In this document: piece by piece, positions 1-20,358 of the stretch
How the letters are laid out: each line of letters opens with the position of its first letter
How positions within the stretch are numbered: the stretch's first letter is position 1
Assembly (NCBI RefSeq): GCF_024509055.1
Contig: NZ_JANINM010000482.1
Coordinates: 1-64,000 of the forward strand
DNA length: 64,000 nucleotides
Origin: Mesorhizobium sp.
GTDB taxonomy: Bacteria; Pseudomonadota; Alphaproteobacteria; Rhizobiales; Rhizobiaceae
Reading direction: 5' to 3'
The notes under the pieces: model-generated
Databases searched by the model: none
Seen by the model: only the letters and a program-made list of their open reading frames with translations
What the model was told of the DNA's origin: nothing
Program-made: the position numbers and the translations under genes

Positions 1-2
1 TC

Positions 3-2350: not shown

Positions 2351-2417
2351 ACCCCGCCGGTTAGGCCCGGCTTTCGTTGGCCTACCCCGTCAGCGTGCCG
2401 GGCCGCTTTGGCCAAAT

Positions 2418-2735: not shown

Positions 2736-2777
2736 TTGCTGAAATGAGGAACATATTCCTGACTCGTCAAGGGGCGC

Positions 2778-2803: not shown

Positions 2804-2829
2804 ACTGCTGGCCAAACGGAGACATTTCC

Positions 2830-3497: not shown

Positions 3498-3499
3498 CG

Positions 3500-4204: not shown

Positions 4205-4383
4205 TGGGCGACGAAGCGAACCGCGCCGAAGAAGCTGCGCCGTCGCGCGAACGGGGTCCGCTTGGCCATTCATGCGAGCACCTCGGTTGCGGCAGGGATG
4301 CCGGGTGGGGCTTTGCTAGGCCGAAACAGCCGTCGCACTGGTTTTGTTTTGAGCACCGCGGCGAAGGCGAGCAGTTTTTGTAG
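4204..4383 (+). CDS. Small Cys/His-rich hypothetical protein (59 aa)
   Basis: The start ATG overlaps the SRAP stop codon (tgATG), giving a 59-aa product. Residues about 20-52 have CEHLGC...HWFCFEH spacing, which could bind one zinc ion. The ORF track shows it only as the tail of a longer frame starting inside the SRAP gene; the overlap and motif argue for the short form. Function unknown. Confidence 0.55.
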   Translation: MGDEANRAEEAAPSRERGPLGHSCEHLGCGRDAGWGFARPKQPSHWFCFEHRGEGEQFL

Positions 4384-4396
4384 GAGCTAAGGGTCG

Positions 4397-4690
4397 ATGT
4401 CGCGCTATCAATTCGTGCATGAATTGGAAAGCACCGCCGATCACATCGCGGACGCCTCACGGGCTGATTTGCAGGTGATGTTGCGCCGGGCGGCGCTGAT
4501 GATCCGCAACGCTGGCGGGCTCAGCCTCGATCCTCGAACAGATGACGCCTTGAGCAGCCTGGCAGCTGAGATTGGCAAGGCCAAGCCCGATCTGGTGAAA
4601 ACGATCGTCGGCGAATGGCTTGTGGCAAATGCCTACTTGCCGGTGCCGTACGCATTGGACGAAGAGAGCGCGGTGGAAGGCAACTCATGA
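4397..4690 (+). CDS. Hypothetical protein (97 aa) in the SRAP operon
   Basis: A 97-aa acidic, helical, soluble protein with a GGAGCTAAGG-type ribosome binding region 6-14 bases before the ATG. It has no Cys motif and no membrane segment, and I do not recognise a family. Its stop overlaps the next start (ATGA), so it continues the operon that begins behind the LexA-type box. Confidence 0.65.
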   Translation: MSRYQFVHELESTADHIADASRADLQVMLRRAALMIRNAGGLSLDPRTDDALSSLAAEIGKAKPDLVKTIVGEWLVANAYLPVPYALDEESAVEGNS

Positions 4691-5262
4691 TTGACGGGCC
4701 AAGGCAGAACGGGAATATCCTTGACCGCGCGCGGAAGGGCGAGAGGCTGCGCGTCACCGATGTCGAGGAGGTCATCAAGCAGCTTCGCGACCGTGAGAGG
4801 GAAACGAAGGGCAAGGGACCCGTCGCCCGCGCCTATGCTGACGACAACGCGCCCGTCGGCGCCGACGCGCTGCGCATCCTAGCCGATCGTGCCCGCGACG
4901 AACTCATTCCCCGGATCATCGGCCGCGCCCAAAAGGCCCTGGGCGTCCTTGAGGAGGCTGAGAACAAAATTGCCGACGGCAAACGCGCCACGGCGGAGAG
5001 CTTGAAAGTGTTGCGCCCGCATGCGCAATGGCTCACCGACGCGCTGGAGCAACTGACCCAGCGACGGGCCGCAGTGGAGGCAAGGATTGCCCATGAAACG
5101 TTCCTTGAGCGCCAACCGCTGGCGGACGGTCCATGGACGGATGCAGCCGTCTTCCTGCAAAGCATCTCATCTTCGGATGCTATCACCGCGGCGCTGAAAG
5201 GAGACACCACGCCATTCGTTGAACGCGGAACAAAGGCGCTCCGGAAGGCGCTATTCCGGTGA
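4687..5262 (+). CDS. Hypothetical helical protein (191 aa), last gene of the SRAP operon
   Basis: The start is set at the ATGA overlap with the preceding gene rather than at the track start (4615), giving 191 aa. The product is highly charged and predicted to be almost all helix (residues about 60-150 with long Ala/Arg/Glu runs such as RAQKALGVLEEAENKIADGK), suggesting a coiled coil. No catalytic motif or known family is visible. As the last member of the operon it may act with the SRAP protein, but nothing in the sequence proves it. Confidence 0.6.
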   Translation: MIDGPRQNGNILDRARKGERLRVTDVEEVIKQLRDRERETKGKGPVARAYADDNAPVGADALRILADRARDELIPRIIGRAQKALGVLEEAENKIADGKRATAESLKVLRPHAQWLTDALEQLTQRRAAVEARIAHETFLERQPLADGPWTDAAVFLQSISSSDAITAALKGDTTPFVERGTKALRKALFR

Positions 5263-5398
5263 GCGCTCCAGGCCGCTCGCGTGCGCGCTTGTAGCCAAAG
5301 ACCGATGGCGGCCAGCGCGGCCGAGGAGACCGGCCTGTTGCGGAAATTCACAAAAGCGGCGTTGTTGCGGATGGGGAAGGGCCCTCCGCCCTAGAAGG

Positions 5399-6586
5399 TC
5401 ATCCCGGTGGTCCAACCCATTGGCCCTCTTCATTGTAGCTTGGGGATCTTTGAAAACCGAAGCCGTTCCACAGGGTGTTGAACGTCAGTCGCATTGCCTC
5501 GGCTATACTCGATGTGGGTCCGGTGAGCGTTGCGTCGGGGAGCTGGATCACATCGTCATAAAGGAGGCCCATTTGGTTGTATCCGCCCCCCTTCGAGTAG
5601 CTCCCGCTAAAAGGCGTTCTAATCCGGCAGCCCTTCGCGTTCGTTAGCGACAGGAATACGAAGAATGGATATCCGAGACCAATGTCCAAGAGAAAGCGGC
5701 GGTAATTCCCCACGGCGGAAATAACCACTGGTTCGAAGTTGCCGACAATGTATGGAAGGCGCTCGTCGAGGTTCAGGTAATCAACACCCTCTACCGCTCC
5801 GGAGCGGAAGGCTTGGCAATACGCTCGGGCGAGCTCGCCAGGTGGATTGCTGAAAGTGAACACGCCGTCGAGATTGATGCCATGGCTGTATGACGAACCT
5901 GCCCGACCCGGGGGAAGAGGCATCTCCGTTCCGTTGGCGGTCAGGGAAACAATGTCCAGGACCTCGCCCGTGGCGAACGTGGAGAGCGGGACTACGTGAG
6001 TTACGAGCCGCCCTCCTGCATCCAGTTGCAGCGGTGTTTCGCCCGACTGGATTTTAATCAGGCGGTCCGCCCGAAATGATCGAATTCGGTCAGCCGCCGC
6101 CTGGGATTGGACGAAGGCAGATCGAAGCTCGCTAACATCCAGGGGATATTTTCCCGCCGAGTTGCGGCCGTAGAATTTGTCGTTGCTGGTGACGCGGTGC
6201 GGCGCCAACCAGCTTCTTGGCACCCGGATAATGAGGACGAAGGCCCCCGCGCCAACTTCGATCTGCTGGAACTGGCAACGCGGAAGCCGCTGGTCTACGC
6301 CCGTGTCGAGCAGCTGCTCCAAGCGGAGCTTCTCGGCATCTGCGTTGGAGATTTGAACGCCGGGGACATCCGACGCTACCCCGTCCTTGGTTTCGATGCC
6401 GATGACGAGGTCACCGCCAGCGGTGTTTGCGAGCGACGTCACTGCGGCGAGAAACTTGATTTTCTCTTCTGAGGAGCCTGCTCGCATCTCCCGCTTGAAC
6501 TCCAGGGTCCGGGTCTCCGAAACTCGGCCCTTCAGTCCCTCCAAGTCTTGCTTGGTTACTTTACTCAGGTCGCTGAACGGTAGCAT
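5399..6586 (-). CDS. Schlafen/AlbA_2-domain protein (putative DNA-binding or defence protein)
   Basis: A 395-aa protein if started at MLPFSDLSK; the open frame extends to 6676 with two earlier Met codons and no clear ribosome binding site at any. Residues about 25-165 have the AlbA_2 (Schlafen AlbA-like) signature: ETRTLEFKREM, LANTAGGDLVIGIE, VLIIRVPRSWLAPHRV and FYGRNSAGKYPLDVSELRSAF. This domain occurs in predicted nucleic-acid-binding regulators and in several anti-phage systems. The C-terminal 230 residues match nothing I know and could be the effector or sensor part. It is convergent to nothing and divergent from the coiled-coil membrane gene. The family call is firm; a defence role is inference. 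Confidence 0.75.
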   Translation of the reverse strand: MLPFSDLSKVTKQDLEGLKGRVSETRTLEFKREMRAGSSEEKIKFLAAVTSLANTAGGDLVIGIETKDGVASDVPGVQISNADAEKLRLEQLLDTGVDQRLPRCQFQQIEVGAGAFVLIIRVPRSWLAPHRVTSNDKFYGRNSAGKYPLDVSELRSAFVQSQAAADRIRSFRADRLIKIQSGETPLQLDAGGRLVTHVVPLSTFATGEVLDIVSLTANGTEMPLPPGRAGSSYSHGINLDGVFTFSNPPGELARAYCQAFRSGAVEGVDYLNLDERLPYIVGNFEPVVISAVGNYRRFLLDIGLGYPFFVFLSLTNAKGCRIRTPFSGSYSKGGGYNQMGLLYDDVIQLPDATLTGPTSSIAEAMRLTFNTLWNGFGFQRSPSYNEEGQWVGPPG

Positions 6587-6777
6587 GAAATTCGACGGAT
6601 TGGCCTTTCGGGCTTCGACCATACAATGATGGAAATGAGCTAAGTAGGATCGCCAGGCTCGGAACCATCTCACCAAAGTGGCAGGAAACGAATTCTTGTA
6701 AGGGTAAATGACACTCGCACAATTGGCAGGTGAATCCTATATCTGTTGCGGGTTACTCGAAATCGGAATCGCCGCTG

Positions 6778-7653
6778 ATGACTGACGATCAATCCGAACC
6801 GCCAAAGAAGCCTTTGAAGCTCAGTGATCTTGCCAAGCTCCCCGAGGACATAGCGCCTCCTGGCGAGATTGGGATGGAGCCGCAATTGAATGCTACTCAC
6901 ATTCTGGCAAAGCAACTCCGAGAGCAGCAAGAAAAGATCGGGGGCTTGCTTCGCCCCTCCAAGGAAGCCGAAGCCTTCCAAAAGCACTTGGAATCTCTTT
7001 CGAAACCAAGCCCCGCTGTGAAATCCATACTGGATCAAGTTGAAAACCAGAGGCGGCTGCTCGACTCAATCACCAATTTCCATGTTGGAAAGGCGGCAGC
7101 AAACAGGCCGGGCTTTGGCATCGCTGATCGGTTCGTTCCGGTCCATAGGCTTCCAGATATCAAGCTGCCTAAGAATCCAGTTCTGGATACCAACGCCAAG
7201 CTAGCTAATATCGAACAGAAGTTCGAGGGCATGCTGGATGTCTTGTCAAATGCCGCGCGGATCGGAAACGAAATTCAAGCTCAAGCGGCAACGTTTATTG
7301 AAAAATTCGAGGTGGCCTCTGATCAGACTGACAAATCAGCCAAGAAAGCAATTCGTGTTGGCGTAATTGCCCTCGTTATTGCTACTCTGAGCCCGTTCGC
7401 GCCAATGGTGGTAGACTACTTTGCTCCTAACCGAACTGTTCCAACTATTGAAGCTCTCACGCGTGAAGTCGTTTCCGCGAGCCAGTCGGCCAGCGTCGAC
7501 AATCAGAAACTGATCGAGGCTTTGAAGGGCCGCGACGAGCAAATTGCTGAAAGACTCATGGATGAAGTTCGGCGGAAGCAGGACGAAACAAACGTTATTT
7601 TGAGCAAACTGCTGGAAGCGCTGAAAGAACGCGATTCCTCTACCAATCCATGA
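6778..7653 (+). CDS. Membrane-anchored coiled-coil protein (hypothetical)
   Basis: About 291 aa from the ATG at 6778; a GTG at 6730 would add 16 residues. The N-terminal 190 residues are charged and helical. A hydrophobic segment (VGVIALVIATLSPFAPMVV, about residues 194-212) would span the membrane once, followed by a helical tail with a long coiled-coil region (EALKGRDEQIAERLMDEVRRKQ). Base composition is visibly more AT-rich than the flanking core genes, consistent with transfer. No family is recognised. It lies between the AlbA_2 gene and the MauJ-like gene. Confidence 0.6.
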   Translation: MTDDQSEPPKKPLKLSDLAKLPEDIAPPGEIGMEPQLNATHILAKQLREQQEKIGGLLRPSKEAEAFQKHLESLSKPSPAVKSILDQVENQRRLLDSITNFHVGKAAANRPGFGIADRFVPVHRLPDIKLPKNPVLDTNAKLANIEQKFEGMLDVLSNAARIGNEIQAQAATFIEKFEVASDQTDKSAKKAIRVGVIALVIATLSPFAPMVVDYFAPNRTVPTIEALTREVVSASQSASVDNQKLIEALKGRDEQIAERLMDEVRRKQDETNVILSKLLEALKERDSSTNP

Positions 7654-7670
7654 CGATCGATCTGGCCGGG

Positions 7671-7689
7671 TGACCCTCTCGAAGGGTCA
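7671..7689 (+). terminator. Stem-loop between the coiled-coil and MauJ-like genes
   Basis: TGACCCT-CTCGA-AGGGTCA forms a perfect 7-bp stem with a 5-nt loop, 18 bp after the coiled-coil gene. There is no T-tract, so it is at best a weak or Rho-assisted terminator, or an operator for the gene that follows. Confidence 0.35.
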
Positions 7690-7734
7690 TCACCACACCC
7701 CCCGAGAGCGATAACTATTGGATGAGCTGAAACC

Positions 7735-9090
7735 ATGCGCGACGAGATGGGATTGCCCCTTCCCATAGAGCGATTGCCAAAGAAGGCGGTGTACGAGGCT
7801 GTACCCGAACTGTTGAAGCGCGGGCAATGGATATGCCTGAACATCGAGCCGTCCTGTGCCTGGCCGACCCGACCTCAGACCGTCGAGTTTGGTGGTTACA
7901 CACTTTGGATTATTCCGCTTACCCAGGAGGACCATCCCGGTGTCGCGATCAATCGTCCACCGGACATGTCCCAGGAAGATGCCGAAAGCTTGCTCTACAG
8001 GTTCTTGAGCGTCGTCGCCTGGCGGCACGGTGCTGGGATCGCCGTCCCCTATCGGACTGGCGGGGGTATGCCTTACATGATGGCCTTGGATAAAAAGTCT
8101 GGCTTTGCCATTCGGGAGCCGTTCGACTTCACCGAGCTGATCTGTCCAGAAGAAGAAGAGCCTCGTATAGCGCTGGCGCTAGTCCGGGAAGCGCGTAGCC
8201 TCAACCATCACGGATACGCCTTTTTATCTTACTGGCGCGTTCTCGAATTGGCCTTTCCCAAGGCCGCTGATCGCGTCTCTTGGATGAACGCGACTCTGCC
8301 CACACTCAAGGGAACAGGTGTGCAGGAGGCAAAAGACAGCATCGCCGCGGAAGGTGCTGAGGATACCTGCGCTCATCTCTTTGCCTCAGGCCGCTGCGCG
8401 ATCGCGCATGCCACCGGCAAGCCAGTTATCAACCCAGACGATCCGCGCGATGCGTCGCGGTTGTATCGCGAACTGCCACTGGTACGCGAAATGGCGATCC
8501 GCGCTGTGGAGGAGCGGTTTGGCATAGCGACACCCATGACTGAGTATCAGCAGCATCTTTATGAGCTGCGCGGTTGGAAAAAGGTTCTAGGCGAACCGTT
8601 GTTAGCTGCCGTCACCACAGGGACGGAACCCAAGGCCGACCAGGTTGTCGATCTACCACCGATTCATGTCCGATTGCGAACGAGCCCGCCTTATGGTCCC
8701 TTCGAAGGTATGGTGCCGAAGGGCATCGAACAGCAAGGCCGGGAGCTGTTGATGGTCTACGGTACGGAAGACGGGTTGGTGGAGATCCGCTTCCGGCTGG
8801 CGCCTGCGGAAGAGCGGCTCAAATTCGATATCTTTGACGGGATTTACGGCAGGGACGACGGATCGGTTGCGGCCGCCGAATACAAGCAGGAGACCCAACG
8901 GTTCTTTCGCGATTACATGCTCAATGGAGAGCTGCAGATGTGGAACGCTGACTCCGGTGCGCTCTTGTCGCGGCTCGATGCATACGTGCCCCTTAACATG
9001 ATGGTCGATTTGGAAGCCTGCAACGCAAACATTGCCGCTGCGCGGGAAGAAGTTGAACGCCGTCGCGCCGAATCGGTGTGTCCCGGGTAG
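7735..9090 (+). CDS. Large hypothetical protein resembling the MauJ family
   Basis: A 451-aa soluble protein with no signal peptide. The centre (about residues 145-265) holds ARSLNHHGYAFLSYWRVLELAF, GRCAIAHA and the NPDDPRDASRLYRELPLVREMA block, which I associate with proteins labelled MauJ (methylamine utilisation, function unknown) and with HEPN-like all-helical folds; the RCAIAHA motif is reminiscent of the RxxxxH of HEPN domains. No mau genes are nearby, so a methylamine role is unlikely here. Given the mobile setting a defence or toxin-like role is possible but unproven. Confidence 0.6.
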   Translation: MRDEMGLPLPIERLPKKAVYEAVPELLKRGQWICLNIEPSCAWPTRPQTVEFGGYTLWIIPLTQEDHPGVAINRPPDMSQEDAESLLYRFLSVVAWRHGAGIAVPYRTGGGMPYMMALDKKSGFAIREPFDFTELICPEEEEPRIALALVREARSLNHHGYAFLSYWRVLELAFPKAADRVSWMNATLPTLKGTGVQEAKDSIAAEGAEDTCAHLFASGRCAIAHATGKPVINPDDPRDASRLYRELPLVREMAIRAVEERFGIATPMTEYQQHLYELRGWKKVLGEPLLAAVTTGTEPKADQVVDLPPIHVRLRTSPPYGPFEGMVPKGIEQQGRELLMVYGTEDGLVEIRFRLAPAEERLKFDIFDGIYGRDDGSVAAAEYKQETQRFFRDYMLNGELQMWNADSGALLSRLDAYVPLNMMVDLEACNANIAAAREEVERRRAESVCPG

Positions 9091-9232
9091 ATCAAGAGGA
9101 CGCCAGCGCGTTGTATTCGCGAACATCGGGCCAGCCGCCACCGGTCACGCCCATACAGACCTTCCTCGCCCTTTCTGCCCGAAGTCCTGGATCTCGCCTC
9201 TCTGTCGTATACGGAAGCGTCGGGCGGACCGT

Positions 9233-9541
9233 TCAGCCGGCCACCGAGCAAGAATACCTGCACCGAGGGTATTCGGAGCAGCCGAGGAATTCCCCGAACC
9301 TGCCGCTTTTCCTCATAAGGTAGCCGCGACAGCTTTCTGCCGGGCATAGGGGCTTTGGCGCCTTATTGCGATACTTCTGTTTCTTGAATTCCCAAGGATG
9401 GATGTTGTCCTTGAATGCCCATGTGCCCCGCTTTGCGCGCCTGGCTTCCTCCAGGGCATCCAAATATCGCTGGCCGGGCCCGTACCGTTCCAGAACCCAA
9501 GCCCAGCCTATAACGCCCCTGGTCTTCCTTGCGGAAGCCAC
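9233..9541 (-). pseudogene. Remnant of an SNase-type nuclease with a topoisomerase-like zinc finger
   Basis: Residues about 18-52 (VLERYGPGQRYLDALEEARRAKRGTW) match the C-terminal end of staphylococcal-nuclease-fold proteins, but the first two thirds with the catalytic Arg/Glu residues are missing. Residues about 65-100 are a complete type IA topoisomerase C4 zinc finger (CPAESCRGYLMRKSGRFGEFLGC...CRYSC). The frame is open about 40 nt upstream of the GTG and ends at a stop that coincides with the end of the neighbouring gene, so the N-terminus was probably lost by deletion. A short DNA-binding product might still be made. Confidence 0.65.
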
Positions 9542-9580
9542 AAATTCAGACGACTGCCAGGTAGTTTCGGTGCCTGGAAT

Positions 9581-10075
9581 TCATTTGACCATGGCTTTCA
9601 CGCTGTCGTGGACGGCGACATAATGGTCGGCGAAGAATGCCAAGAAAATCGCCAACGATACCGGGTCCGGTTCATCATAGCCAATTGCCTGAAACCATTG
9701 ACGGCACCAGGTAAGCTTTTTGTCTTTGTCAGGATCAACGAGAGTCCCTAGGTCTGCCATGGCCGCCTTCATTTCTTGCAACCGGGCCGCACCACTTGGC
9801 GTTTCGGGTGAATTAGGGAAGACAATGCGCTCGTATTCCAGCTGCGTCTGGTGGAGCAAAGGCTCTTTCTTCGCCTGCAATACCAGGTTCCTCAACACCA
9901 TTGCTTCGCGATAGAGAAAGACCTTTGCGCGGAAGCGTTCGTGAAACGCCAGAGGCAAATCGTAGGTTTCCGGAGTGGCCTGCGCTTGGTCCTCGACTGC
10001 ACATATTCGGTGAAGCAACTCGGCCATAACGGGCGGGGTCGTTACTAACTGACGTTTCTTGGTGAACCAGCCCAT
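9581..10075 (-). CDS. Hypothetical protein (164 aa)
   Basis: A 164-aa soluble helical protein starting MGWFTKKRQ. It contains a Trp-rich C-terminal part (LTWCRQWFQAIGYDEPDPVSLAIFLAFFADHYVAVHD) with a mildly hydrophobic stretch that is too short and broken for a clear membrane segment. No family is recognised. It overlaps the open frame of the nuclease remnant by its stop codon. The N-terminal MGWFTKK resembles the MFGFFKK start of the gene at 10483, which may be chance. Confidence 0.55.
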   Translation of the reverse strand: MGWFTKKRQLVTTPPVMAELLHRICAVEDQAQATPETYDLPLAFHERFRAKVFLYREAMVLRNLVLQAKKEPLLHQTQLEYERIVFPNSPETPSGAARLQEMKAAMADLGTLVDPDKDKKLTWCRQWFQAIGYDEPDPVSLAIFLAFFADHYVAVHDSVKAMVK

Positions 10076-10163
10076 TCAGATCAGTCCTTCGACTAGCTGC
10101 TAGCGAATTCTCATCGGACCTTTCCGGTAGCCTCGGCTCAGGTTCGAGAGGCATCATACTAAG

Positions 10164-10179
10164 CCGCTGCCGGCAGCGG
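10164..10179. repeat. 16-bp perfect palindrome
   Basis: CCGCTGCCGGCAGCGG is its own reverse complement. It lies in the roughly 400-bp stretch between two hypothetical genes, where I see no convincing gene (the minus-strand ORF 10159-10593 has no start signal). Such sites can be protein-binding sites or simply GC-rich chance palindromes. Confidence 0.4.
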
Positions 10180-10579
10180 TTCCAAGTAGGTAGCGCCTGG
10201 CACTACGCTGCCTTCGGTCACCACGTTTGCTTTGCTCCGCCTGTGCTCCGCCTGCAAATCCCGGCACAGCCGCAGCGCCGCTCGCAAAAGGGTCGGCCAG
10301 CACCCCAAAGGCTCCCGCGCCTCGCAACTAACTTCCCAGTCGGAGAATCGCCCTTGAGATTCCGTTGGAGACAAGCGAGATTGGCGCGTTATTAGAGACG
10401 TAGTTTTCGGATTTTCCCTGGGGGCCACGCGCAGTGCGGCAGATATAGCCCTTGAGCCTTTTGCTAGGGGTGAGCTTGTGCGATGTTTGGGTTTTTCAAG
10501 AAAAATAAGCGGATCGAATCCGAATTTGCACGGGCGCTTGAGTTTGACAATTTGACCTACGCGAAGGTTGTTTCCGACC

Positions 10580-11098
10580 ATGTTCGAGAACATGGACTCG
10601 ATGACGCGGGCGCATGTTGTCGTGGCTTACGAAAACCTGCTTCCTCACCTCACCGCCTACTGGCAAGTCGCCAAGGAGAGGGGCGAAGACGGTTCAGTTG
10701 AACAGTTTATCGGCATGGCGGCCAAGCGCCTCGACGAGGTCGGTAACGACGAAATCCAATCGCGGCGTTGGGCCTGGTTTCTCTTTGCCGCGATGCTGGG
10801 GCGGCTAGAAAAACTGTCCTTCAAGAACCCTGCGATCGTGCAGACTGGCGCTAAGATATGGTGCGCACTTGTGAGTGAGATTCCACGCTTGAAAGGGCTG
10901 CTTCCTAATAATGTGGTCTGGAAACCGGAAGAAAAGGAATGGTTCAACTTGTCGATGGACGATGACACGCTGATCCAATTTGCGATCAACAATGTGATCC
11001 CGCCGATGTTTGCGAAGCATGAAAGCGTTCAGGTTTTCGCAAAATCTCGGCGTCTTTATTATCGGCCTTCCGATTCCCGCTTCGGCATAATTCCTTGA
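10580..11098 (+). CDS. Hypothetical protein (172 aa), N-terminus possibly lost by frameshift
   Basis: A 172-aa soluble protein from ATG 10580 (a TTG at 10568 is also possible). It is Trp-rich and helical in the centre (SRRWAWFLFAAMLGRLEKL). An overlapping frame starts at 10483 with a better start region (GGGGTGAGC then ATG) and reads MFGFFKKNKRIESEF before running on to 10701 in the wrong frame. One reading is that the two were a single gene and a frameshift near 10580 split them; another is two overlapping genes. No family is recognised for either part. Confidence 0.5.
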   Translation: MFENMDSMTRAHVVVAYENLLPHLTAYWQVAKERGEDGSVEQFIGMAAKRLDEVGNDEIQSRRWAWFLFAAMLGRLEKLSFKNPAIVQTGAKIWCALVSEIPRLKGLLPNNVVWKPEEKEWFNLSMDDDTLIQFAINNVIPPMFAKHESVQVFAKSRRLYYRPSDSRFGIIP

Positions 11099-11174
11099 CG
11101 GCACGGCTTTCCCGCTTCGTCCCTGACGACTCCCGTTCTGCTCCGTTTTTGCAAATGGCCGTTCCGTTTTTGCG

Positions 11175-11699
11175 TCATCCGGGCAGCCACCCAACCCCAT
11201 GGGGAGGCCCGTCAGGGCCGATCCTTGGGTCGGTTGGGATATCTGAAAGTCCCTTGTCGGAATCCGCGAATTCGGCCGTTTCAAAACCTTCACCGTCCGA
11301 ATCCATCCACGCCGATTCCGAATCCGCGCCTTCCTCGTAAAGAGCCTTGCAGGCATCGCGAAGGTCTTCACGCGCGGCGCGCCTCTGTGCCTCCGCCTGC
11401 ATCTCTGCCTCGACCTTCCGTCGCTTCTCCTCTACCATGGCTTGAGCCGTGGCCTTGTCCGTAATTGTCCATTCTTCGACCCGAAGCAGAATCTGGTCGT
11501 ACGGAGAATCCGAGGGGCGCACGATGACCCACCCGCCGGCATCATCGACGGTCAGGATCATTTCCCCGCCCTCCAGGGCATCGGCCGCTGCCTTCCTTTC
11601 TCCAGCCGTGCCGGCGAGGACGACGACAGGGGCGGCTACCAGTGAGCGCCGGTGTACTCGCGAACCTTGAGGGAAGTCCCTTGTCAACCGGCGCTCCAT
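11175..11699 (-). CDS. Hypothetical protein (up to 174 aa)
   Basis: An open frame of 174 aa. Residues about 45-115 look genuinely coding: GGWVIVRPSDSPYDQILLRVEEW followed by a charged helix rich in Glu, Lys and Arg (about residues 85-115), and an acidic tail with many Ser/Asp. The first 40 residues are less convincing, so the true start may be the internal Met at MILTVDD. No family is recognised. The following 346 bp up to the HARE-HTH gene (11700-12045) shows no gene. Confidence 0.4.
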   Translation of the reverse strand: MERRLTRDFPQGSRVHRRSLVAAPVVVLAGTAGERKAAADALEGGEMILTVDDAGGWVIVRPSDSPYDQILLRVEEWTITDKATAQAMVEEKRRKVEAEMQAEAQRRAAREDLRDACKALYEEGADSESAWMDSDGEGFETAEFADSDKGLSDIPTDPRIGPDGPPHGVGWLPG

Positions 11700-12045
11700 G
11701 GCGTGGGGTGCACGCCATTGGTCAACGATAACGCCGCCTAGTGATTGCCCTCATCCGCCGATTGGATGACGAATTGAGCCCGGCCTTCTTTGAGGCGGCA
11801 AGCACAGGAGTGACAGGCCAGGCCGGGAAGCGGCGGCGACACGTCGCTGCCTTGAGTTTCTCGTCCACGGCGCCTCCGTCTCAACGGCGTAGACCGAGGT
11901 AATCGAATCCTAAGCCCGGTTCCCTGCTTGCAAATTGAGTCCTACCGCTGCCTCCAGAGCGCCTCTGGCGACTTGGTACGCTCGCACAGGATTCGGTCCG
12001 TAAGGACATCTCGAAACCAAAGCCGCAGCGCTACGTGTAAGGGGG

Positions 12046-12612
12046 CTAGACTTCCGGACTGGCCAACGTCCAGCCTCGACCTTTAACGTGCTGGAATTCG
12101 TCGTTATGCCGTCGAAGGGCCGCCCGAACCAGTTCCACAGGATCGGCGGATTGAATCCGAACGCCTATCTCGTCCATCTTCGCCTTGATCTCCCGTTGCA
12201 TCAAGGGCCGACCAGCATCCCTAAGGATTCTTCGTGCGGCGTCGCGGATTCGCTCGGACTCGCTTGTTTCGGCGTCGCGGATTCGCTCGGACCCGGTTGG
12301 TTTGGCATCGCGGATTCCCTCGGATCCGCCGGCGCTTTCGTTGCCCGTCTCAGCAGGCAATCTTGGGTTCGAAGATTCAATCGGCAAAGAGCCCACTTGG
12401 AAACCGCGCATAGCAACCAATTCGGCCTTGAATACTTCAATGCTCTTCCGAGTCCGGACGATCTCCGCACTCCGAGCAGCTTCGAATTCCTCAAGCTTTG
12501 TCCGGTATTCCTGTGCAGCTTTTCGGAATAGAGCGAGTTCCGCCTCTTGTTCTTGGACGCGAGTTTCCATCGCCTCCAAAAGGTTCTCCAAGATCTGCTG
12601 GGGCTCTGTCAC
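12046..12612 (-). CDS. Coiled-coil, repeat and HARE-HTH-like protein
   Basis: 188 aa when started at GTG 12612, which has GGAG six bases upstream; the track start is a TTG four codons earlier. Three parts are visible: residues about 5-70 form a coiled coil (QILENLLEAMETRVQEQEAEL), residues about 93-128 hold three near-copies of an ERIRDA(E/A) repeat of 12-13 residues, and residues about 125-185 resemble the HARE-HTH winged helix (AARRILRDAGRPLMQREI...FQHVKGRGWTL), a module found in restriction-type and chromatin proteins. It could be a DNA-binding adaptor. The next gene is the first recombinase of the trio, divergent and 470 bp away. Confidence 0.65.
   Translation of the reverse strand: MTEPQQILENLLEAMETRVQEQEAELALFRKAAQEYRTKLEEFEAARSAEIVRTRKSIEVFKAELVAMRGFQVGSLPIESSNPRLPAETGNESAGGSEGIRDAKPTGSERIRDAETSESERIRDAARRILRDAGRPLMQREIKAKMDEIGVRIQSADPVELVRAALRRHNDEFQHVKGRGWTLASPEV
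12232..12330. repeat. Degenerate tandem repeats of about 36-39 bp inside the HARE-HTH gene
   Basis: Three near-identical copies of GTCGCGGATTCGCTCGGA-type sequence are spaced 36-39 bp apart on the plus strand; they encode the ERIRDA repeats on the minus strand. The spacing is a multiple of three, so copy number could change without breaking the frame. Confidence 0.7.
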
Positions 12613-12690
12613 GGGGGACTCCAAAATGATCGGAGCAAGTCAGTTGTGGACGTCCGCAGTTGCAGGTATGTTCCGAGTAGTGATTCGGAC

Positions 12691-13081: not shown

Positions 13082-14680
13082 ATGAATCTGAAACCTGCAC
13101 AAACCTTGCGTCCGAAAAGGCGCCATCTAAACCTTGCGCTGCTCGAACGCGGACGTCACCATCTGATTGTCCGTCAGACGGTATACGAGGATGGCATGCC
13201 AAAAAAGCGTCCCGTCCTATGGATAATAATCCCGGGGGCGGATGGACTGCTCCGAATATTCCGATACGAGCCGCTTCTGGAGTACTACGCGGATCACTCC
13301 GCGATGTCCTACACATGGATGAAGAATGCTGCACGGGCCGTCGGTGCGCTGTTTGACCACTCCTTGGCGGTTGGTGCGTCTCCATCCTTCGACCAATGGA
13401 GGGAACAAGGCGGGCTCCAGCGGCGCCTGGTGCGGGGTCTCGCCCGTTCGCTTGCTCACGGCACAATGGAGATCGGTCCCGACGGACGCACCGTTGATCC
13501 AACGCGTCTCTATTGGAGCCCTCGAGGAAAGCGCCAGGCGGCCGTCCTCCTGTCCGCTCTGACCCTCCATTTTAGGTGGTTTCAGAACGAACCGTCGGCC
13601 GCCAAGTGGGCCCAAGCGACTTCCACTGATGCAATCGCCAAGTCGCCACGGGTGGCCCTCAGCCTTGCAACGGAACTTATGATCCGCAGGCACAACTCAT
13701 TGCTCGGGCATTTGAAAGGGTTGGAACGGGAACCGGCGCACGCGTTTCCCGGAGTGATTGAGCCGAGCAGAAGGGGGACAGGGGCGGTTCCCACGTTTCC
13801 GGCGAAGTATGTTGGTCCTTTTCTCTACGAAGGGTTCAAGGACGAGTCCGGCGAATGCGACGAGGCCGGCCAGTTGCTCGCGCATTTTGCGATCGCGCTC
13901 GGCCTCCGAAAGAGCGAAGGGTTCCATCTCTATAATTCTGACGTGCAATTCATCGGCGACGTTCCGTGGATCTTTTTTCATCATCCCGAATTCGGAAAAA
14001 TTGCAGATGGCGGCAGGTACGTTACTCGCGAGGAATACCTGGAGCGGTTCGGACTTCTGCCACGTAACCGGGATACAGGCAGAAACAAAGCCGGCTGGAA
14101 GGGCATGGCCGACGACGAGCAGGGGACGCCCGGGTATTTCCTCCCGATCCCGTCCCTTCGCCACAGGGTTGCGCAGCTGCTGACCAAGTATCTCTACGTT
14201 ACGCGCCCTGCCATCATGGCTAGGCGCCCCCGCCACCTCCCAGACCATCCATTTCTATTCGTCAGCAGAGGGCGAACCTTAGCGTCGGGCGGCGGAGACA
14301 TCGGAGATCCCTACACGATGACTGCTTTCGAGCATTCTTGGGGGCAGGGCATTAAAAGGGTCGGCTTGCAGTTCGATGACCCTACGATGATGACGCCAAT
14401 CAAGTGGAGAGGAACGACACAGCATGGGGGACGTCACTTCTATGGTAGGTTTCTGTTCACTTCCGGCGTGCCGGGCGACCTTATCCAAAGGTGCATGCAC
14501 CACCGAACGCTCAAAGCCCACCTGGCCTACACGCAGCTGACCCCGTCCGAAATCAACACTCTCCTGAACGACGCCAGCGGAGACTGTTCGCCCGACCAAT
14601 CCTTTCGCAACATGCGCGATGAATTCGCGTCGCAATTTCGGGACCCGCAACGCCAGGAATTTCACCGGCAGTACACCTAG
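13082..14680 (+). CDS. Tyrosine recombinase, first gene of a GMT-like trio (GmtY-like)
   Basis: A 532-aa protein with GAGGTG six bases before the ATG. The C-terminal half has the tyrosine-recombinase residues in order: Arg in GLRKSEGFH (about residue 275), HxxR in QHGGRHFYGRF (about 447-451), a His in MHHRTLKAH and the likely nucleophile Tyr in HLAYTQL (about 484). It cuts and rejoins DNA through a 3'-phosphotyrosine. The length, the two downstream partners and their order match the architecture of the gamma-mobile-trio recombinase GmtY. It would catalyse integration or excision of the surrounding element. A relationship to other long plasmid or ICE integrases is the alternative. Confidence 0.8.
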   Translation: MNLKPAQTLRPKRRHLNLALLERGRHHLIVRQTVYEDGMPKKRPVLWIIIPGADGLLRIFRYEPLLEYYADHSAMSYTWMKNAARAVGALFDHSLAVGASPSFDQWREQGGLQRRLVRGLARSLAHGTMEIGPDGRTVDPTRLYWSPRGKRQAAVLLSALTLHFRWFQNEPSAAKWAQATSTDAIAKSPRVALSLATELMIRRHNSLLGHLKGLEREPAHAFPGVIEPSRRGTGAVPTFPAKYVGPFLYEGFKDESGECDEAGQLLAHFAIALGLRKSEGFHLYNSDVQFIGDVPWIFFHHPEFGKIADGGRYVTREEYLERFGLLPRNRDTGRNKAGWKGMADDEQGTPGYFLPIPSLRHRVAQLLTKYLYVTRPAIMARRPRHLPDHPFLFVSRGRTLASGGGDIGDPYTMTAFEHSWGQGIKRVGLQFDDPTMMTPIKWRGTTQHGGRHFYGRFLFTSGVPGDLIQRCMHHRTLKAHLAYTQLTPSEINTLLNDASGDCSPDQSFRNMRDEFASQFRDPQRQEFHRQYT

Positions 14681-14819
14681 CGACATCGCGCCCAAACAAT
14701 AGCCCGCAAAGCTCTAACGCGAGCCAGCAGTGCCAACTTCGTGGCCGCCTTTCGGCGGAACCCGGTGTGCGCGGCTGCTACATGAGCGGCTCGCTCGACG
14801 CTCGAACAGGAGACGAACA

Positions 14820-17804
14820 ATGACCTATTTCACTACCGCTCAAGGCGAAGGAATCTTCCTTAACCTCGATCATGTTGATCTTCGAGAAGACGGCACCGCA
14901 GACTTCTCGGACGAGGAAGCGAAGGCGCTCAAGCTTATCAAATCGATCGCAAATTCGCGGCCGCTAACTTCGGATCACCTCGCGGCGGTCGACCTTATCT
15001 TCGACAAGGGGATATGCATCTCACCGTACACGATCTTCAAGCTGCCGCTCCATCGCGACGTCTGCAGACACTTGAATGAAACCTCAGTGCCTGGCTGCGA
15101 GTTGCGCTTGGCGCTGGAAGCCGCGGGAGCCTTTGCGTTCCTCGATGGAGTGAACAAAAGGCAGGAATCGCAAGCAATTCTGGAGCGTATACTTGCGGTG
15201 TTCACCGTATCCACTATTGGACTTCAGACCATTAGCGATGCGCCACCAGACTTTGTTCATGCTATTGTCGATTTCTTCCGGTCGAGTGATGGGCTGGATT
15301 GGAACCGGGAGGTGCTGAAGGCTAACAACGTCGCTCGGCAGTGCGTTTCAAACGTTGTCGTGGGCATGGCCAAGGTCTTCAATGACCCCACCCTCACCAA
15401 CAAAGCGCGTAAATACAAAAAAGCACGTAAATACAAGGATGGCGCTGCCGGAAACAACCCGGGCTGGTACGCATTTCAACGTTCGAACGATATCCTTGAT
15501 CAGGAACTTCTAGGCCTTTCTCAAGATTTCTTCGAGGACACACGCATGAGGCCCGGTCTTGTGCAGTCGGCAATAATCAATGTCGCGTCCTGGATGAAGC
15601 AAACCTGCCCGAATGAGAAGGTTCGCGATGTCATCCTGTCCGCTAGTCGCGCCGAGTCTTTCAGTTCATTTCTGGCGAAGAAAAGCGGAGCCACGGCAGG
15701 CAGCAGTCACATGCTCAGCATGCTGCAAGCAGCGCGGAAGCTATCGCTGAGCATCAGCGAGAAACTGGCTGAATACGTTGGCGACAGGGTCCAGTTTGAC
15801 CTTGTGTCCGAGAAGGAAGTCAACAAGGTCAAGAACGAGGTCAAGAGACGCACCAAGCCCAGCAGCGTGCGCTCCCGACCCTTGCCCGAGAAATTGATCC
15901 CGATCATGAGAGAGATCCTTGAAGAAGGTTCCGAAGGTTGGCCCGGGAAAAACTTCAGGGTCGACGTCACCGTCGATGGTTCGGTCGAAAATATCCATTG
16001 CCCTGTCATTCCCTCGCTATTCAGGGTGATGCTGGACATACCACTTCGCATGGGACAGATCCGGCGGCTCGACAGCGGCGAGGGAGACGTTCGCCATTTC
16101 AATGGCGAGAAAATGGAGTGGGAGGACAACAATGGTCCATTGGCTGGATATTGGGCGGATCAAGCCGGCGTATCCCGGGAAGGCTTCGCGACGCGGGGTT
16201 ACGCGATTGAGATCGACGATGAAATAAAACCCGTAACCGGCATCTGGGTGAACACCAATAAGACCGGAGCGCCGTTCGCTATGCCTTGGCACGTGCCCAA
16301 CGTATTAAGAATCTTGTGGGACGTCCGTAGATGGCAAGACAGGTATAATCCGATCTCAGCACCAGTTGGTCCTCAATTATATCTGGATGATCCTGAAAAA
16401 TATCCGGCTTCAACCAAGGAAAGAATGCCGAAGATTTTTCCAATTGGCCGTTTGTTTCCGAGTCGGTACCGCCGGACCCAGGGCCGTATAGTAACCGGTG
16501 GTGAAATACACCATGCGTGGTGTTCAATTCTCTTTGAGATACAACGTCGCTGGAATGCGCAGCATCCAGGAAACCCGGTGACGCTGGCGGAGATCCATCC
16601 GAAGACAAAGCAAGCTTGGCGGCCCCGCTACAGAATCCATGGGTTGCGGGTCCGGGGCCTGACAAACCTTCGGCGCGGTGGAATGCCACTAGATTTGTTG
16701 ATGAAATTCATCGCAGGTCACGCGTCCCTTGCCATGACGATCTCTTACATTACGCCGAGTCCGTCAGAAATAGCCGATATGGTCGATAAGGCCGCTGCGA
16801 GGGCAGAGACGCAGCGCGCGTTTATTGACGATTTGAAGCGGATGGAAGTCGACGAAGCGCTTAAACGAACCGTTTCGCTGTCGCCATCGGCGGCCCGCTC
16901 GGCGATAAAGTCTGGAGCGCAGTTCGAATTTTGCAACGTCGCTATCGGGGTATGCCCGTATGATGGATCGCGTTGTAGCGATGGCGGAGACCTGATCCGG
17001 AAAGACGACAGCCAGGGTGTTTCAAAGGGGGTATATGGACCAGTTGAACCTCGAAATTGCGTGATGTGCAGGCACTTTCTTTCAGGGCCGGCGTGGCTAT
17101 CCGAGCTCATGGCTTACGGTACCAAGCTCTGCGAGCGCATGAGTTACTTGGCAGAAGAGGGAAATAAAATCAATCAGCTTGCCGCGCAATACGATGAGGC
17201 GCGAAGAGACGGGTCGATTAGCGTTGCGGAGTACGAGAACCACTGGGATGATCTCGGTGCAAGCATGCAACAAGTGAAAAATGAGCAAGAAAGGTTGTGC
17301 GCCGCTATATTTAATGTAGAGGTTCTGTCAAACGCCAGCATTAAACTTATCAACGATATCCCGAATAACGATTCTGGCTTGATGCTTGTCGCGAACAGCC
17401 GTTCTTCCTTTGTCGAATACCGGGAAATCACCGAGTACGAACAGGCGGTGCGCATTATCGCTGCAGGCCGGATATACCCGATTCTCGGCGACGAACGGGT
17501 CGAGCGGAAGCGCAATGACTACTCGGAGCTAATGATGTGGAATTCCGGCATGGTGCCTCCCCGGATGGTTACCAAGGCCAGTCCTTGGCATTTGCAGAGG
17601 GCGATGGACCAGTACGCCCTCTTTATAGCCTCGAGGGCATCGCGCGCAGAGATCGAAGGCCTGATCGATGGATCCATGCAGTTGCGCGATCTCGGGTTTG
17701 AGGAGCAGGTTGAAAGTCTATTCAATGCCGCCCTTGGCGAGCCGATCCACCTTTCGGGGGTGGCGCGGCAACACAGCTCTGCAGCCTTGGAGGGGGCGGT
17801 CTAA
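14820..17804 (+). CDS. Large recombinase with Cys-rich tail, second gene of the trio (GmtZ / VPA1269-like)
   Basis: A 994-aa protein from the ATG at 14820, which follows AGGAGACGAACA; the longer track start lacks such a signal. The N-terminal 380 residues are unassigned. A tyrosine-recombinase-like core follows: Arg in PLRMGQIRRLD (about residue 409), HGLRVRGL (about 605), GHASLAMTISYI with the Tyr near residue 643. After it come cysteine clusters CNVAIGVCPYDGSRCSDGG (about 704-722) and CVMC (about 746), likely a zinc-binding module, then about 245 mostly helical residues. This layout matches what I know as the VPA1269 family, renamed GmtZ. Its stop overlaps the next start. Confidence 0.75.
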   Translation: MTYFTTAQGEGIFLNLDHVDLREDGTADFSDEEAKALKLIKSIANSRPLTSDHLAAVDLIFDKGICISPYTIFKLPLHRDVCRHLNETSVPGCELRLALEAAGAFAFLDGVNKRQESQAILERILAVFTVSTIGLQTISDAPPDFVHAIVDFFRSSDGLDWNREVLKANNVARQCVSNVVVGMAKVFNDPTLTNKARKYKKARKYKDGAAGNNPGWYAFQRSNDILDQELLGLSQDFFEDTRMRPGLVQSAIINVASWMKQTCPNEKVRDVILSASRAESFSSFLAKKSGATAGSSHMLSMLQAARKLSLSISEKLAEYVGDRVQFDLVSEKEVNKVKNEVKRRTKPSSVRSRPLPEKLIPIMREILEEGSEGWPGKNFRVDVTVDGSVENIHCPVIPSLFRVMLDIPLRMGQIRRLDSGEGDVRHFNGEKMEWEDNNGPLAGYWADQAGVSREGFATRGYAIEIDDEIKPVTGIWVNTNKTGAPFAMPWHVPNVLRILWDVRRWQDRYNPISAPVGPQLYLDDPEKYPASTKERMPKIFPIGRLFPSRYRRTQGRIVTGGEIHHAWCSILFEIQRRWNAQHPGNPVTLAEIHPKTKQAWRPRYRIHGLRVRGLTNLRRGGMPLDLLMKFIAGHASLAMTISYITPSPSEIADMVDKAAARAETQRAFIDDLKRMEVDEALKRTVSLSPSAARSAIKSGAQFEFCNVAIGVCPYDGSRCSDGGDLIRKDDSQGVSKGVYGPVEPRNCVMCRHFLSGPAWLSELMAYGTKLCERMSYLAEEGNKINQLAAQYDEARRDGSISVAEYENHWDDLGASMQQVKNEQERLCAAIFNVEVLSNASIKLINDIPNNDSGLMLVANSRSSFVEYREITEYEQAVRIIAAGRIYPILGDERVERKRNDYSELMMWNSGMVPPRMVTKASPWHLQRAMDQYALFIASRASRAEIEGLIDGSMQLRDLGFEEQVESLFNAALGEPIHLSGVARQHSSAALEGAV

Positions 17805-18484
17805 TGCCCTCCAGGATCGGCTCCATCATTGCAATTGCGGATATGAAGTCGGCAGGCATCCTTGACGCTTTGCCCGACGGCCGTAAGGCAAAATCCAGCA
17901 TGGAAGGCATCAATGAAATCTGCAGGGCACTGCTTTTGAGAAGGACACCCTTGTGCCCCACTGCAAAACTCGTGGCGGAAGAGGGTCGCAAAGGAAATCC
18001 GCACTTCCCACTCGAGCGGACGATCTTCAACTCCTACAGTAAGGTGGTCAGGATCTGGAAGAAAGCATATTACGATGTAATGAACATCGATGCCGACGCT
18101 CCTATCGATGAAAACGAGGTCGAAAGGATCGATACGTCTGTGATGGAGCCATCGACGGGCGATCTGGTGGACAGGTTGAAGGAGATCGTTTCGGAGCTCC
18201 TGCAGCGCTGCAACGTGTTGAAGCGGATCATCGACGAGGGCGTTCCCGTGCCGGCCGGCGGCCTCCCGGAGGGCATAGGCGCTGACGAGATCATGGCTAG
18301 ACTAAAGGACTGGCTTCAGTCGCTTTACAGTAGTGGTTTCGACCTAAGCGACCTAGGGCTGAAGGTCAGCCGCAAGACGCCGCCCGGAACGAGGATAATG
18401 GGCGGTCCTCTCCTCGACGAATTGAGGACGTTCATCGAGGATTACGAGCGCGTTCAGAAGACACGAAGAGCGAGAAACGACTAG
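17804..18484 (+). CDS. Third gene of the trio (GmtX-like, 226 aa)
   Basis: A 226-aa protein whose ATG overlaps the stop of the large recombinase (tAATGc), so expression is coupled. Residues about 30-90 (SSMEGINEICRALLLR...FPLERTIFNSYSKVVRIWKKAYYD) have the helix-turn-helix-like pattern of small partner proteins of recombinase trios, with the TIFN...Y..vvriW core resembling GmtX. The middle part (about 115-150) is a probable coiled coil. It probably assists or directs the recombinases. Assignment depends more on context than on sequence. Confidence 0.65.
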   Translation: MPSRIGSIIAIADMKSAGILDALPDGRKAKSSMEGINEICRALLLRRTPLCPTAKLVAEEGRKGNPHFPLERTIFNSYSKVVRIWKKAYYDVMNIDADAPIDENEVERIDTSVMEPSTGDLVDRLKEIVSELLQRCNVLKRIIDEGVPVPAGGLPEGIGADEIMARLKDWLQSLYSSGFDLSDLGLKVSRKTPPGTRIMGGPLLDELRTFIEDYERVQKTRRARND

Positions 18485-18636: not shown

Positions 18637-18933
18637 TGGTGTCCACGGCAGGATTTGAACCTGCGACCCCAGGATTCATACCACTTCGGCTTTCGCCGCC
18701 GCTTCCGCGTTCGTGGTCTGGACTGTCCCTTCACCATTGGCCAAGGCCGTTAGGTGCTGCCCATCCAGTCTCTACACCTTCACCGGAATATTCCGGAGCT
18801 TGGCTCGGGATTGGCATGCTGAGAGTTCAGCGAAGCGTTCCCCGAATTTGAGCAGATCGGTTGTACCGTTTCCGAATTACAACCCCCAATTGTTTCAGGA
18901 ATCCTGTGCTCTATCCAACTGAGCTACGTGGAC
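18637..18933 (-). tRNA. tRNA-Arg(CCU), interrupted by a group I intron
   Basis: Exon 1 is 18933-18897 and exon 2 is 18676-18637. Joined, they give a 77-nt tRNA with acceptor GTCCACG/CGTGGAC, D stem GCTC/GAGC, anticodon stem CAGGA/TCCTG, loop TTCCTAA with anticodon CCT, T arm GCAGG-TTCAAAT-CCTGC, discriminator A and an encoded CCA. All stems pair perfectly once the 220-nt insert is removed. It reads AGG codons. It is the neighbour of the recombinase trio, so it is the natural candidate for an integration target or passive boundary. Confidence 0.93.
18677..18896 (-). ncRNA. Group I intron (IC3-like) in tRNA-Arg(CCU)
   Basis: A 220-nt intron inserted between U36 of the anticodon and A37. The upstream exon ends in U and the intron ends in G, the two invariants of group I splicing. 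The guide GGGGGUU near the intron start can pair with exon GGAUUCCU to form P1. Core pieces are visible: a P2 hairpin GGUUGUA/UACAACC, a P4-P6 region ending CAAUCCCGAGCCAAGC, the GGUGUAGAGACU element of P7, its partner CAGUCCAGACC, and a GGCGAAAGCC P9 hairpin. There is no ORF inside. Such introns in the same tRNA are known from Agrobacterium. Confidence 0.92.
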
Positions 18934-19023
18934 GTTCTCCTTCTAGCGAGGAGGGCGTCGTACCCGATGCGCCCGAAAATATCAATTGACCCAAACTGGT
19001 AAAGTTACCGCACCTCGAAACCC

Positions 19024-19100
19024 TGGTGGTGGCTGGAATTCCCCCAGATCGGTAACTCTTTCCCCCTTAGAGGCGCTCTATCCTACTGAGCTACGGGACC
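19024..19100 (-). pseudogene. Degenerate tRNA-like sequence (77 nt)
   Basis: On the minus strand the 77-nt stretch starts GGTCCCGTAGCTCAGTAGGATAGAGC style, with an intact D arm (GCTC/GAGC) and ends in CCA. The anticodon arm and the T loop do not fold properly (no T33, no TTCRA loop) and only about four acceptor pairs form. It looks like a decayed tRNA, perhaps once tRNA-Arg, lying 90 bp upstream of the intron-containing tRNA-Arg. A covariance-model search would settle whether it is functional. Confidence 0.4.
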
Positions 19101-19194: not shown

Positions 19195-20358
19195 TCAGGC
19201 GGCGAGCGCCGTTTCCGCCAGCCTCACCCAGTAACTCATGCCGTGCGGGATGACCTCGTCGTTGAAGTCGTAGGCGGGATGGTGCAGGCCGGCTGAATCG
19301 CCATTGCCGATGAAGATGAAGGCGCCGGGCCTCGCCTCCAGCATGTAGGAAAAGTCCTCGCCGCCCATCACCGGCTGGATGGCGCGGTGGACCTGCGCGT
19401 CGCCGGCAACGTCGGCGGCGATATCGCTGGCAAAGATCGTCTCTTCCGGATGGTTGAAGGTGACGGGGTAATTGGCGTCGTAGTCGACCTCGATCGACGC
19501 GCCGAAGGCAGTGGCCAAGCCCGCGCAAAGCGCGCGGATGCGCTCTTCAGACTTCTTGGCCACTTCCTTCTTCAGCGTGCGCACGGTGCCGCAAATCTCG
19601 GCGCTTTCGGGGATCACATTATAGGCGTCGCCGGCGTGGAATTTGGTGACAGACACCACCACGGCCTCGACGGGATCGGTGCTGCGCGAGGCGATGGTCT
19701 GCAGTGCACCGACCAGCTGGCTGGTGATGACGATCGGGTCGATTGTGCCATGCGGCATCGCCGCATGCCCTCCGCGGCCCTTGACGGTGATGGTGAACTC
19801 GGCGGTCGCGGCCATGATCGGGCCGGGCTTGATGGCGAATTGGCCGACCGGGAGCCCCGGCATGTTGTGCATGCCGAATACCCTGGAAATGCCGAAGCGC
19901 TCCATCATGCCGTCCTTGACCATTTCATTGCCGCCGCCGCCGCCTTCCTCGGCCGGCTGGAAGATGACGGCAACGGCGCCGGCGAAGTTGCGGGTCTCGG
20001 CCAGGTATTTGGCGGCGCCGAGCAGCATCGCGGTATGGCCGTCATGGCCGCAGGCGTGCATCTTGCCGGATACCGTCGAGGCCCAGGGCTTGCCAGTGAT
20101 CTCCTCGATCGGCAGCGCGTCCATGTCCGCGCGCAGCCCGATGGTCGCGCCATCGCCCTTGCGGCCGCGGATGATGCCGACGACGCCCGTCTTGCCGAGA
20201 CCTGTCACCACCTCGTCGCAGCCGAAGGCCTTGAGCTTGTCGGTGACGAAGGCGGCGGTCTTGAAAACATCGAAGTTCAGCTCCGGTGTCTGGTGCAGAT
20301 GTCGTCGCCAGCCAGCAACTTCTTCCTGCATTTCCGCGGCGCGGTTCAAAATCGGCAT
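19195..20358 (-). CDS. M20-family amidohydrolase (hippurate hydrolase/N-acyl amino acid hydrolase type)
   Basis: A 387-aa dizinc hydrolase of the AbgA/HipO group. Metal-site motifs are present: GLRADMDALP (about residue 74), KMHACGHDGHTAMLLG (about 98-113), PAEEGGGG (about 134) and the HNMPGLPVG loop. The dimerisation domain insertion begins near VKGRGGHAAMP. The enzyme cleaves N-acyl or amide bonds, for example of hippurate or indole-amino acid conjugates; the natural substrate cannot be read from sequence. Length is normal for the family. It stands alone on the minus strand. Confidence 0.9.
   Translation of the reverse strand: MPILNRAAEMQEEVAGWRRHLHQTPELNFDVFKTAAFVTDKLKAFGCDEVVTGLGKTGVVGIIRGRKGDGATIGLRADMDALPIEEITGKPWASTVSGKMHACGHDGHTAMLLGAAKYLAETRNFAGAVAVIFQPAEEGGGGGNEMVKDGMMERFGISRVFGMHNMPGLPVGQFAIKPGPIMAATAEFTITVKGRGGHAAMPHGTIDPIVITSQLVGALQTIASRSTDPVEAVVVSVTKFHAGDAYNVIPESAEICGTVRTLKKEVAKKSEERIRALCAGLATAFGASIEVDYDANYPVTFNHPEETIFASDIAADVAGDAQVHRAIQPVMGGEDFSYMLEARPGAFIFIGNGDSAGLHHPAYDFNDEVIPHGMSYWVRLAETALAA

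Follow-up and report, generated by a model that had tools for sequence, protein, structure and literature searches.

A probable GMT-related island in Mesorhizobium that breaks a tRNA-Arg(CCU) gene and carries an intron-containing substitute

The DNA analyzed here, hereafter the window, is the 64,000-nucleotide stretch at the start of contig C482 (NZ_JANINM010000482.1) in the Mesorhizobium sp. assembly GCF_024509055.1. Three genes lie on its plus strand, in the order that a sequence-only reading had given them: gene 1 (13082-14680), specifying a tyrosine recombinase of 532 aa; gene 2 (14820-17804), specifying a large tyrosine recombinase of 994 aa, or of 1024 aa from an alternative GTG start upstream at 14730; and gene 3 (17804-18484), which overlaps gene 2 by one base and specifies an accessory protein of 226 aa. 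Order and common strand (Y-Z-X) are those of the gamma-mobile-trio (GMT) islands with GmtY-GmtZ-GmtX, said to have been described by Mahata et al. in 2024 (Nat Microbiol 9:3268).

The tyrosine-recombinase residues claimed for gene 1 are all there (R276-K340-H448xxR451-H474-Y483), and the set of gene 2 is likewise complete (R410-K481-H607xxR610-H634-Y643). Gene 1 matches the GmtY profile NF040693 over residues 63-493 (E 2.1e-61), with 208.5 bits against a curated equivalog cut-off of 340 bits. Gene 2 matches the GmtZ profile NF047926 over residues 387-951 (E 1.4e-70), with 238.2 bits against a cut-off of 600 bits, and Pfam PF13009 (E 3.6e-24). Described earlier as a VPA1269/GmtZ-like protein with a Cys-rich tail, it has four cysteines (C712, C719, C747, and C750) that are invariant in 18 of 18 aligned relatives. 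Gene 3 alone has no family match in Pfam and NCBI profile searches, and the GmtX profile NF040692 matches one of eight gene-3-type proteins, at E 0.056 only. A tblastn search of plasmids with gene 3 also returned no match, so a profile comparison was needed. Gene 3 and seven homologues (n = 8), compared profile to profile with nine annotated GmtX proteins, gave a probability of 93.9 and E 1.6e-7, and an earlier run with fewer gene-3 sequences had agreed. The GmtX-like label thus survives in profile-profile comparison, but not as a significant single-sequence match. On these scores, the trio is homologous to GMT, yet it is not a member by NCBI criteria, since its GmtY and GmtZ matches, significant as they are, fall under the curated cut-offs.

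The cargo-like genes that had been noted left of the trio are present and occupy positions 1-12000, from the contig start; GC content is 54-61% in this region versus 63-66% right of 20 kb. Pfam matches identify an AraC/GlxA-type regulator (258-1307), an SRAP-domain protein (3500-4204), an AlbA/Schlafen-type protein (5399-6676, minus strand), and a MauJ-domain protein (7735-9090). PADLOC, run on six window proteins, gave no match. Between cargo and trio, a divergent gene of 192 aa (12046-12624, minus strand) may specify a regulator, with a coiled coil and a weakly winged-helix-like C terminus (Pfam HARE-HTH, E 0.08). It has a homologue in the same divergent position at another locus (L178; 36%, E 8e-17) and, judged by eye, a similar-looking gene in an element of Rhizobium redzepovicii. 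Elsewhere in the window, a SAM-alpha riboswitch occupies 57311-57388 on the minus strand (RF00521, 78 bits).

Downstream of gene 3, the minus strand carries a tRNA-Arg(CCU) gene (18637-18933) with a 220-nt group I intron (18677-18896) directly 3' of the CCU anticodon. ARAGORN reports this tRNA-Arg(CCT), its strand, and its 220-nt intron when introns are allowed, and no tRNA-Arg at the position when they are not. The Rfam group I intron model RF00028 matches at 18704-18906 (E 3.2e-8) with 39 bits, below its gathering score of 50 bits; the native Agrobacterium tRNA-Arg intron (L065) reaches no more than 33.3 bits with this model, and 39 bits, though under the gathering value, is thus normal for this group of tRNA-Arg introns. 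Introns of the family also occur at three further loci (L061, L122, and L178), and together with the native Agrobacterium intron they match at E 1e-7 to 2e-4. The boundaries (CCT before the intron, GGTATG at its end, AATCC after it) place a U before the intron and a G as its last base, as is the rule for group I introns (PMC11915505), and the spliced sequence is recognized as a good tRNA-Arg(cct). This is the sole intron-containing copy in the assembly; a whole-assembly search saw no intact intronless tRNA-Arg(CCU).

The sequence-only reading had taken the intron-containing gene as a landmark next to the trio. The gene is real, but it is part of the element, and the true landmark is a broken intronless tRNA-Arg(CCU) beyond it, whose 5' half occupies 19074-19100 on the minus strand. 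Similarity to the genus begins exactly there: in most of 60 other same-genus genomes, the match to the right flank starts at 19074. The nearest host gene on the right side of the break specifies an M20-family peptidase (19195-20358, minus strand), and same-genus genomes have the same tRNA-M20 arrangement. In the window, the host tRNA is present only in its 5' part up to AGAGCG, after which foreign sequence follows. The proposed comparison of empty and occupied sites was informative, with one intact intronless tRNA-Arg(CCT) called by ARAGORN at the empty site in 26 of the 27 same-genus loci scanned and no intron-containing tRNA gene at that site in these relatives. In a same-genus relative (L014, positions 1-1450), apparent accessory sequence lies directly left of the intact tRNA gene, so the tRNA-Arg(CCU) locus may be an integration hot spot.

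A whole-genome search located the missing 3' part of the host tRNA on another contig, at C524:76295-76353. It is preceded by the left end TCGGTAACTACTTGTTCGCCCCTAAA (C524:76269), which forms an inverted-repeat pair with the right terminal repeat TCGGTAACTCTTTCCCCCTTAGAGG of the window (19049-19073, plus strand). The host halves overlap by exactly 6 bp, CGCTCT at 19074-19079 (AGAGCG on the tRNA strand, here the minus; tRNA nt 22-27), and rejoined they give a perfect tRNA-Arg(CCT). As this overlap is identical at both ends, the direction of a strand-biased copy-out cannot be read from it. A subterminal palindrome, TGGTAAAGTTACC (18997-19009), is a probable recombinase arm site; similar palindromes (GGTAA..TTACC) were read at two other loci (L090 and L115). 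Ends resembling the left one occur in four other genomes, and ends resembling the right one at ten loci. Beyond the 3' half, C524 matches the chromosome of a relative. On its island side, it carries left-end genes common to other elements of this kind (AAA ATPase and metallophosphoesterase), and the last 9.2 kb of this side are complete in no genome of the relatives' sample. The assembly is fragmented, with 565 contigs and 7.9% contamination, and the two ends lie on separate contigs. If C482 and C524 belong to one island, they would contribute 19 kb and 76 kb, respectively, to a total length of at least about 95 kb.

Genes for tRNAs are common targets of islands and are usually restored upon insertion (PMC4383910), and intron-containing tRNA-Arg(CCU) genes without a trio occur in many alphaproteobacteria. 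The window could accordingly hold an ordinary tRNA-targeting island, whose att identity restores the tRNA, with the intron-containing gene as a separate native gene that lies there by chance. We consider this quite improbable. With the split at nt 22-27 and only 6 bp shared, neither half is restored; the complete tRNA differs in sequence from the host tRNA and sits about 140 bp inside the element end; and the intron-containing gene is absent from the site in same-genus relatives but accompanies the trio in five or more other genera.

Very probably, a large integrative island instead has its right end in the window; it would belong to a GMT-related, target-replacing branch that breaks tRNA-Arg(CCU) and supplies an intron-containing substitute. 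What the DNA itself contributes to this reading is a broken target with both halves, matching ends, an intact substitute, empty sites in relatives, recurrence, and a single GmtZ clade. Mechanistically, the GmtY- and GmtZ-like recombinases, with the GmtX-like protein as a helper, would recombine the inverted ends (GGTAA motifs and a CCCCTWAA-type core). Their predicted target is a site in the intronless tRNA-Arg(CCU) gene, namely the 6 bp of its D-arm at which the halves overlap, and insertion there would split the gene. This loss would be made good by the complete second tRNA-Arg(CCU) beside gmtX, which is part of the fixed end of the island. The group I intron of the substitute presumably splices itself out, and the host would then use the substitute tRNA to read AGG. 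The island may still be mobile, and transposition could proceed by cut-and-paste or by copy-out as proposed for SEs (PMC10214605). Neither an excised form nor a circle of the island was seen.

Continued mobility has a rival in which the window holds the scar of the same target-replacing element, with a trio that is nonfunctional in this strain. Decayed trios in two relatives (L058 and L057) and several loci that retain only the tRNA and a broken half point in that direction. Here, however, the three frames are open, neither recombinase lacks a catalytic residue, and the repeats are preserved at both ends, so that a dead island is possible but, on balance, unlikely.

The package recurs. Searching GTDB genomes for the intron-end pattern yielded 72 loci, six of which have gmtX or the whole trio directly upstream of the intron-containing tRNA gene (two Aureimonas, Rhizobiales R129_N, Phyllobacterium trifolii, Agrobacterium vitis S00303, and Rhizobium Root1212); 59 have neither trio nor broken half within the stretch examined. 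In all, the trio accompanies the intron-containing tRNA gene at L089, L090, L122/L174, L061/L173, L172, and L178, and gmtX accompanies it at L115 and L131. The three-gene order that the sequence-only reading had proposed to look for in other alphaproteobacteria is thus found in Rhizobium, Phyllobacterium, Aureimonas, Agrobacterium vitis, and others, and by sequence comparison no fewer than five other genera have the package of trio and intron-containing tRNA gene. At ten loci besides the window, the intron-containing gene is followed by a broken 5' half with a similar element end. Four genomes (P. trifolii, R. redzepovicii, Aureimonas Leaf324, and A. vitis) retain both halves of the host tRNA, and the break is always at about nt 22-27. 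An M20 gene is likewise the neighbor of the elements in Phyllobacterium, A. vitis, and R. redzepovicii.

Searches for GmtZ relatives in samples of 299, 398, and 385 genomes, at a threshold of E 1e-50 or better, returned seven genomes. The intron-containing tRNA gene lies beside gmtX in three of them (the window's own, G079, and G663) and elsewhere on the contig, with decayed trios, in two (G009 and G102); the remaining two (G726 and G1001) have no such gene near the trio and fall outside the tRNA-Arg clade. A peptide-pattern scan for GmtZ in GTDB contigs gave no match. The GmtZ searches added R. redzepovicii and G663, a genome of another family (49, 47, and 44% identical to the window). Across the tRNA-Arg elements, GmtZ is 26-47% identical to that of the window.

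The element of R. redzepovicii 18T (L179/L172; G741:C51, about 22843-56975) is complete, with both ends on one contig, 34.1 kb apart, and its intron-containing tRNA gene about 3.8 kb from gmtX. PADLOC identified DrmD, DrmMI, and DrmB of DISARM in its cargo. An IetA-like ATPase is also part of the cargo, and inspection by eye suggests a TcmP/Gp37-like pair. Near the decayed trio of Xaviernesmea oryzae (L057), a retron-type RNA (RT-13, RF03017, 73.8 bits) was detected at 4340-4409.

Other loci record repeated or lost insertions. In P. trifolii (L061, about 1592-2550), two broken tRNA 5' halves, one of them intron-type, stand in tandem after the intron-containing gene, which points to successive insertions at one site. 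At L109, L132, and L088, broken intron-type tRNA-Arg 5' halves adjoin an intact intron-containing gene with no trio in the stretch examined; these are probably decayed islands. We had considered that the intron might shield the substitute from re-insertion, and rejected this idea because intron-type 5' halves are broken at L061, L109, L132, and L088.

In the GmtZ tree, the seven elements with an intron-containing tRNA gene form one clade (100/100) with Bosea as its neighbor (98/97); the GmtY tree recovers the same clade weakly (67/45). The trio of the window therefore appears to represent a GMT-related branch with a separate GmtZ clade, and the proposed likeness to the gamma-mobile-trio module is kept as kinship rather than membership. 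The tree of the intron-containing tRNAs mixes element copies with plain copies and contains no single element lineage, and thus does not support descent of all element tRNAs from a single copy. The element tRNA may have been swapped, exchanged, or captured more than once, or the plain copies may be left-overs of lost islands. Several Rhizobiaceae carry a plain intron-containing gene at the same M20 locus without a trio, which fits both readings.

This same mixture, and the intron-containing gene next to the M20 gene without a trio, could also be expected if that gene were an ancestral host gene near which elements insert, the broken half being an old tRNA duplicate. Same-genus genomes, however, carry one intact intronless tRNA gene at the site, the 3' half is found not nearby but at the opposite end of the element, and in five genomes the gene is split in this way, with element ends where it is broken. 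An ancestral origin at this locus is therefore highly improbable, and replacement of the target by an island-borne gene is retained.

The nearest known machines are GMT, SE, GInt, and Tn554. With GMT, the window shares three homologous genes in the same order, and one complete relative carries antiphage cargo (DISARM). It differs in scores below the cut-offs, a barely recognizable GmtX, a separate GmtZ clade, and the replacement that it carries for the gene it destroys. Unlike the Klebsiella and Acidiphilium elements, it also has no VPA1267-family or RecD/AAA gene after gmtX. In the Klebsiella pneumoniae plasmid pIncHIB (L189/L194), a complete tyrS lies beyond the AAA ATPase that follows gmtX. 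The accessible part of PMC10214605 gives the SE core as intA-tfp-intB-srap, with tfp as a necessary fourth gene, and describes strand-biased copy-out with a 6-bp footprint for SE and Tn554. The window has a 6-bp overlap, identical at both ends; between its Y and Z genes there is no counterpart in position to tfp, and that part of the source mentions no target replacement. GInts (ginABCD) resemble the window in their recombinase operon at one end, large variable cargo, and site-specific insertion; the portion of PMC5385486 available describes no tRNA target or replacement for them. RIT elements (PMC10214605) consist of three tyrosine recombinases with an archetype of 315-410 aa, each with a catalytic Tyr, whereas the window has two large recombinases (532 and 994 aa) and a 226-aa protein without a recombinase match, and so is not assigned to RIT. 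In canonical tRNA islands (Islander, PMC4383910), a tyrosine recombinase splits the tRNA gene and leaves a displaced fragment, while attP carries a target fragment that restores the gene in place; the window has a whole, differing, intron-containing gene beside the break. This intron has the same postanticodon position as bacterial tRNA-Arg(CCU) group I introns, the same Rfam family, and a score similar to that of the native Agrobacterium intron. It differs in being a fixed part of a mobile island's end, and not just of a resident host gene. We define the target-replacing tRNA-Arg(CCU) clade by a split host tRNA together with a complete substitute, and the window has both. The literature searched, which did not extend to the original GMT study, had nothing relevant on island-borne intron-containing tRNAs or on target-replacing islands, and in it no island was described as destroying a tRNA gene while providing a whole one with an intron.

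The sequence-only reading had suggested that the trio would extend GMT to the Hyphomicrobiales. A GMT-related trio is indeed present here, but the extension is not new, as GMT in this order is already visible in public annotation, with GmtX beside a VPA1269-family protein on a Bosea plasmid. On this plasmid (pANAM02 of Bosea sp. ANAM02; L051, 10125-11751), a tRNA-Glu(CTC) gene comes after gmtX, in the opposite orientation, and GGTA-type repeats are present. The same plan may exist here in a variant with tRNA-Glu, but a broken tRNA-Glu was not observed, and the case is therefore not counted as target replacement.

A different gene is affected in Acidiphilium multivorum JZ-6, where a GMT element lies inside recA on plasmid NZ_CP041717.1 (L053/L185/L186). 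The 5' part of recA ends at the P-loop codons beside a gmtY-like gene, and about 16 kb separate it from the 3' part, which lies on the other side of the record start. Just after gmtX stands a complete recA, 78% identical over the 3' part of the broken copy. Self-comparison of ten other GMT-type loci for replaced genes brought out only the Acidiphilium recA within the stretches compared, and L195 had none in its stretch. The logic is the same with another gene, although one case cannot prove a rule. We tentatively suggest, as a possibility somewhat short of an even chance, that GMT-related elements include a general class whose insertion breaks a conserved host gene and whose recombinase end brings a complete but diverged version of it. 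The gene would be tRNA-Arg(CCU) in Rhizobiaceae and their relatives and recA in Acidiphilium, and there are perhaps others.

To conclude, the ends, overlap, and target described here provide a clear definition for a GMT-related element outside gammaproteobacteria. The usual view is that islands inserting into tRNA genes leave their host unharmed because identical att sequence restores the target; at this locus, the target is instead lost and its role would pass to a different, intron-containing gene, which is a possible reason why a target-replacing island is hard to lose. If the general class proves true, the host would depend on its island and loss would be costly, and decayed islands would leave the intron-containing tRNA behind as a resident gene. 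Such islands could thereby offer a testable route for the spread of self-splicing introns in tRNA genes.
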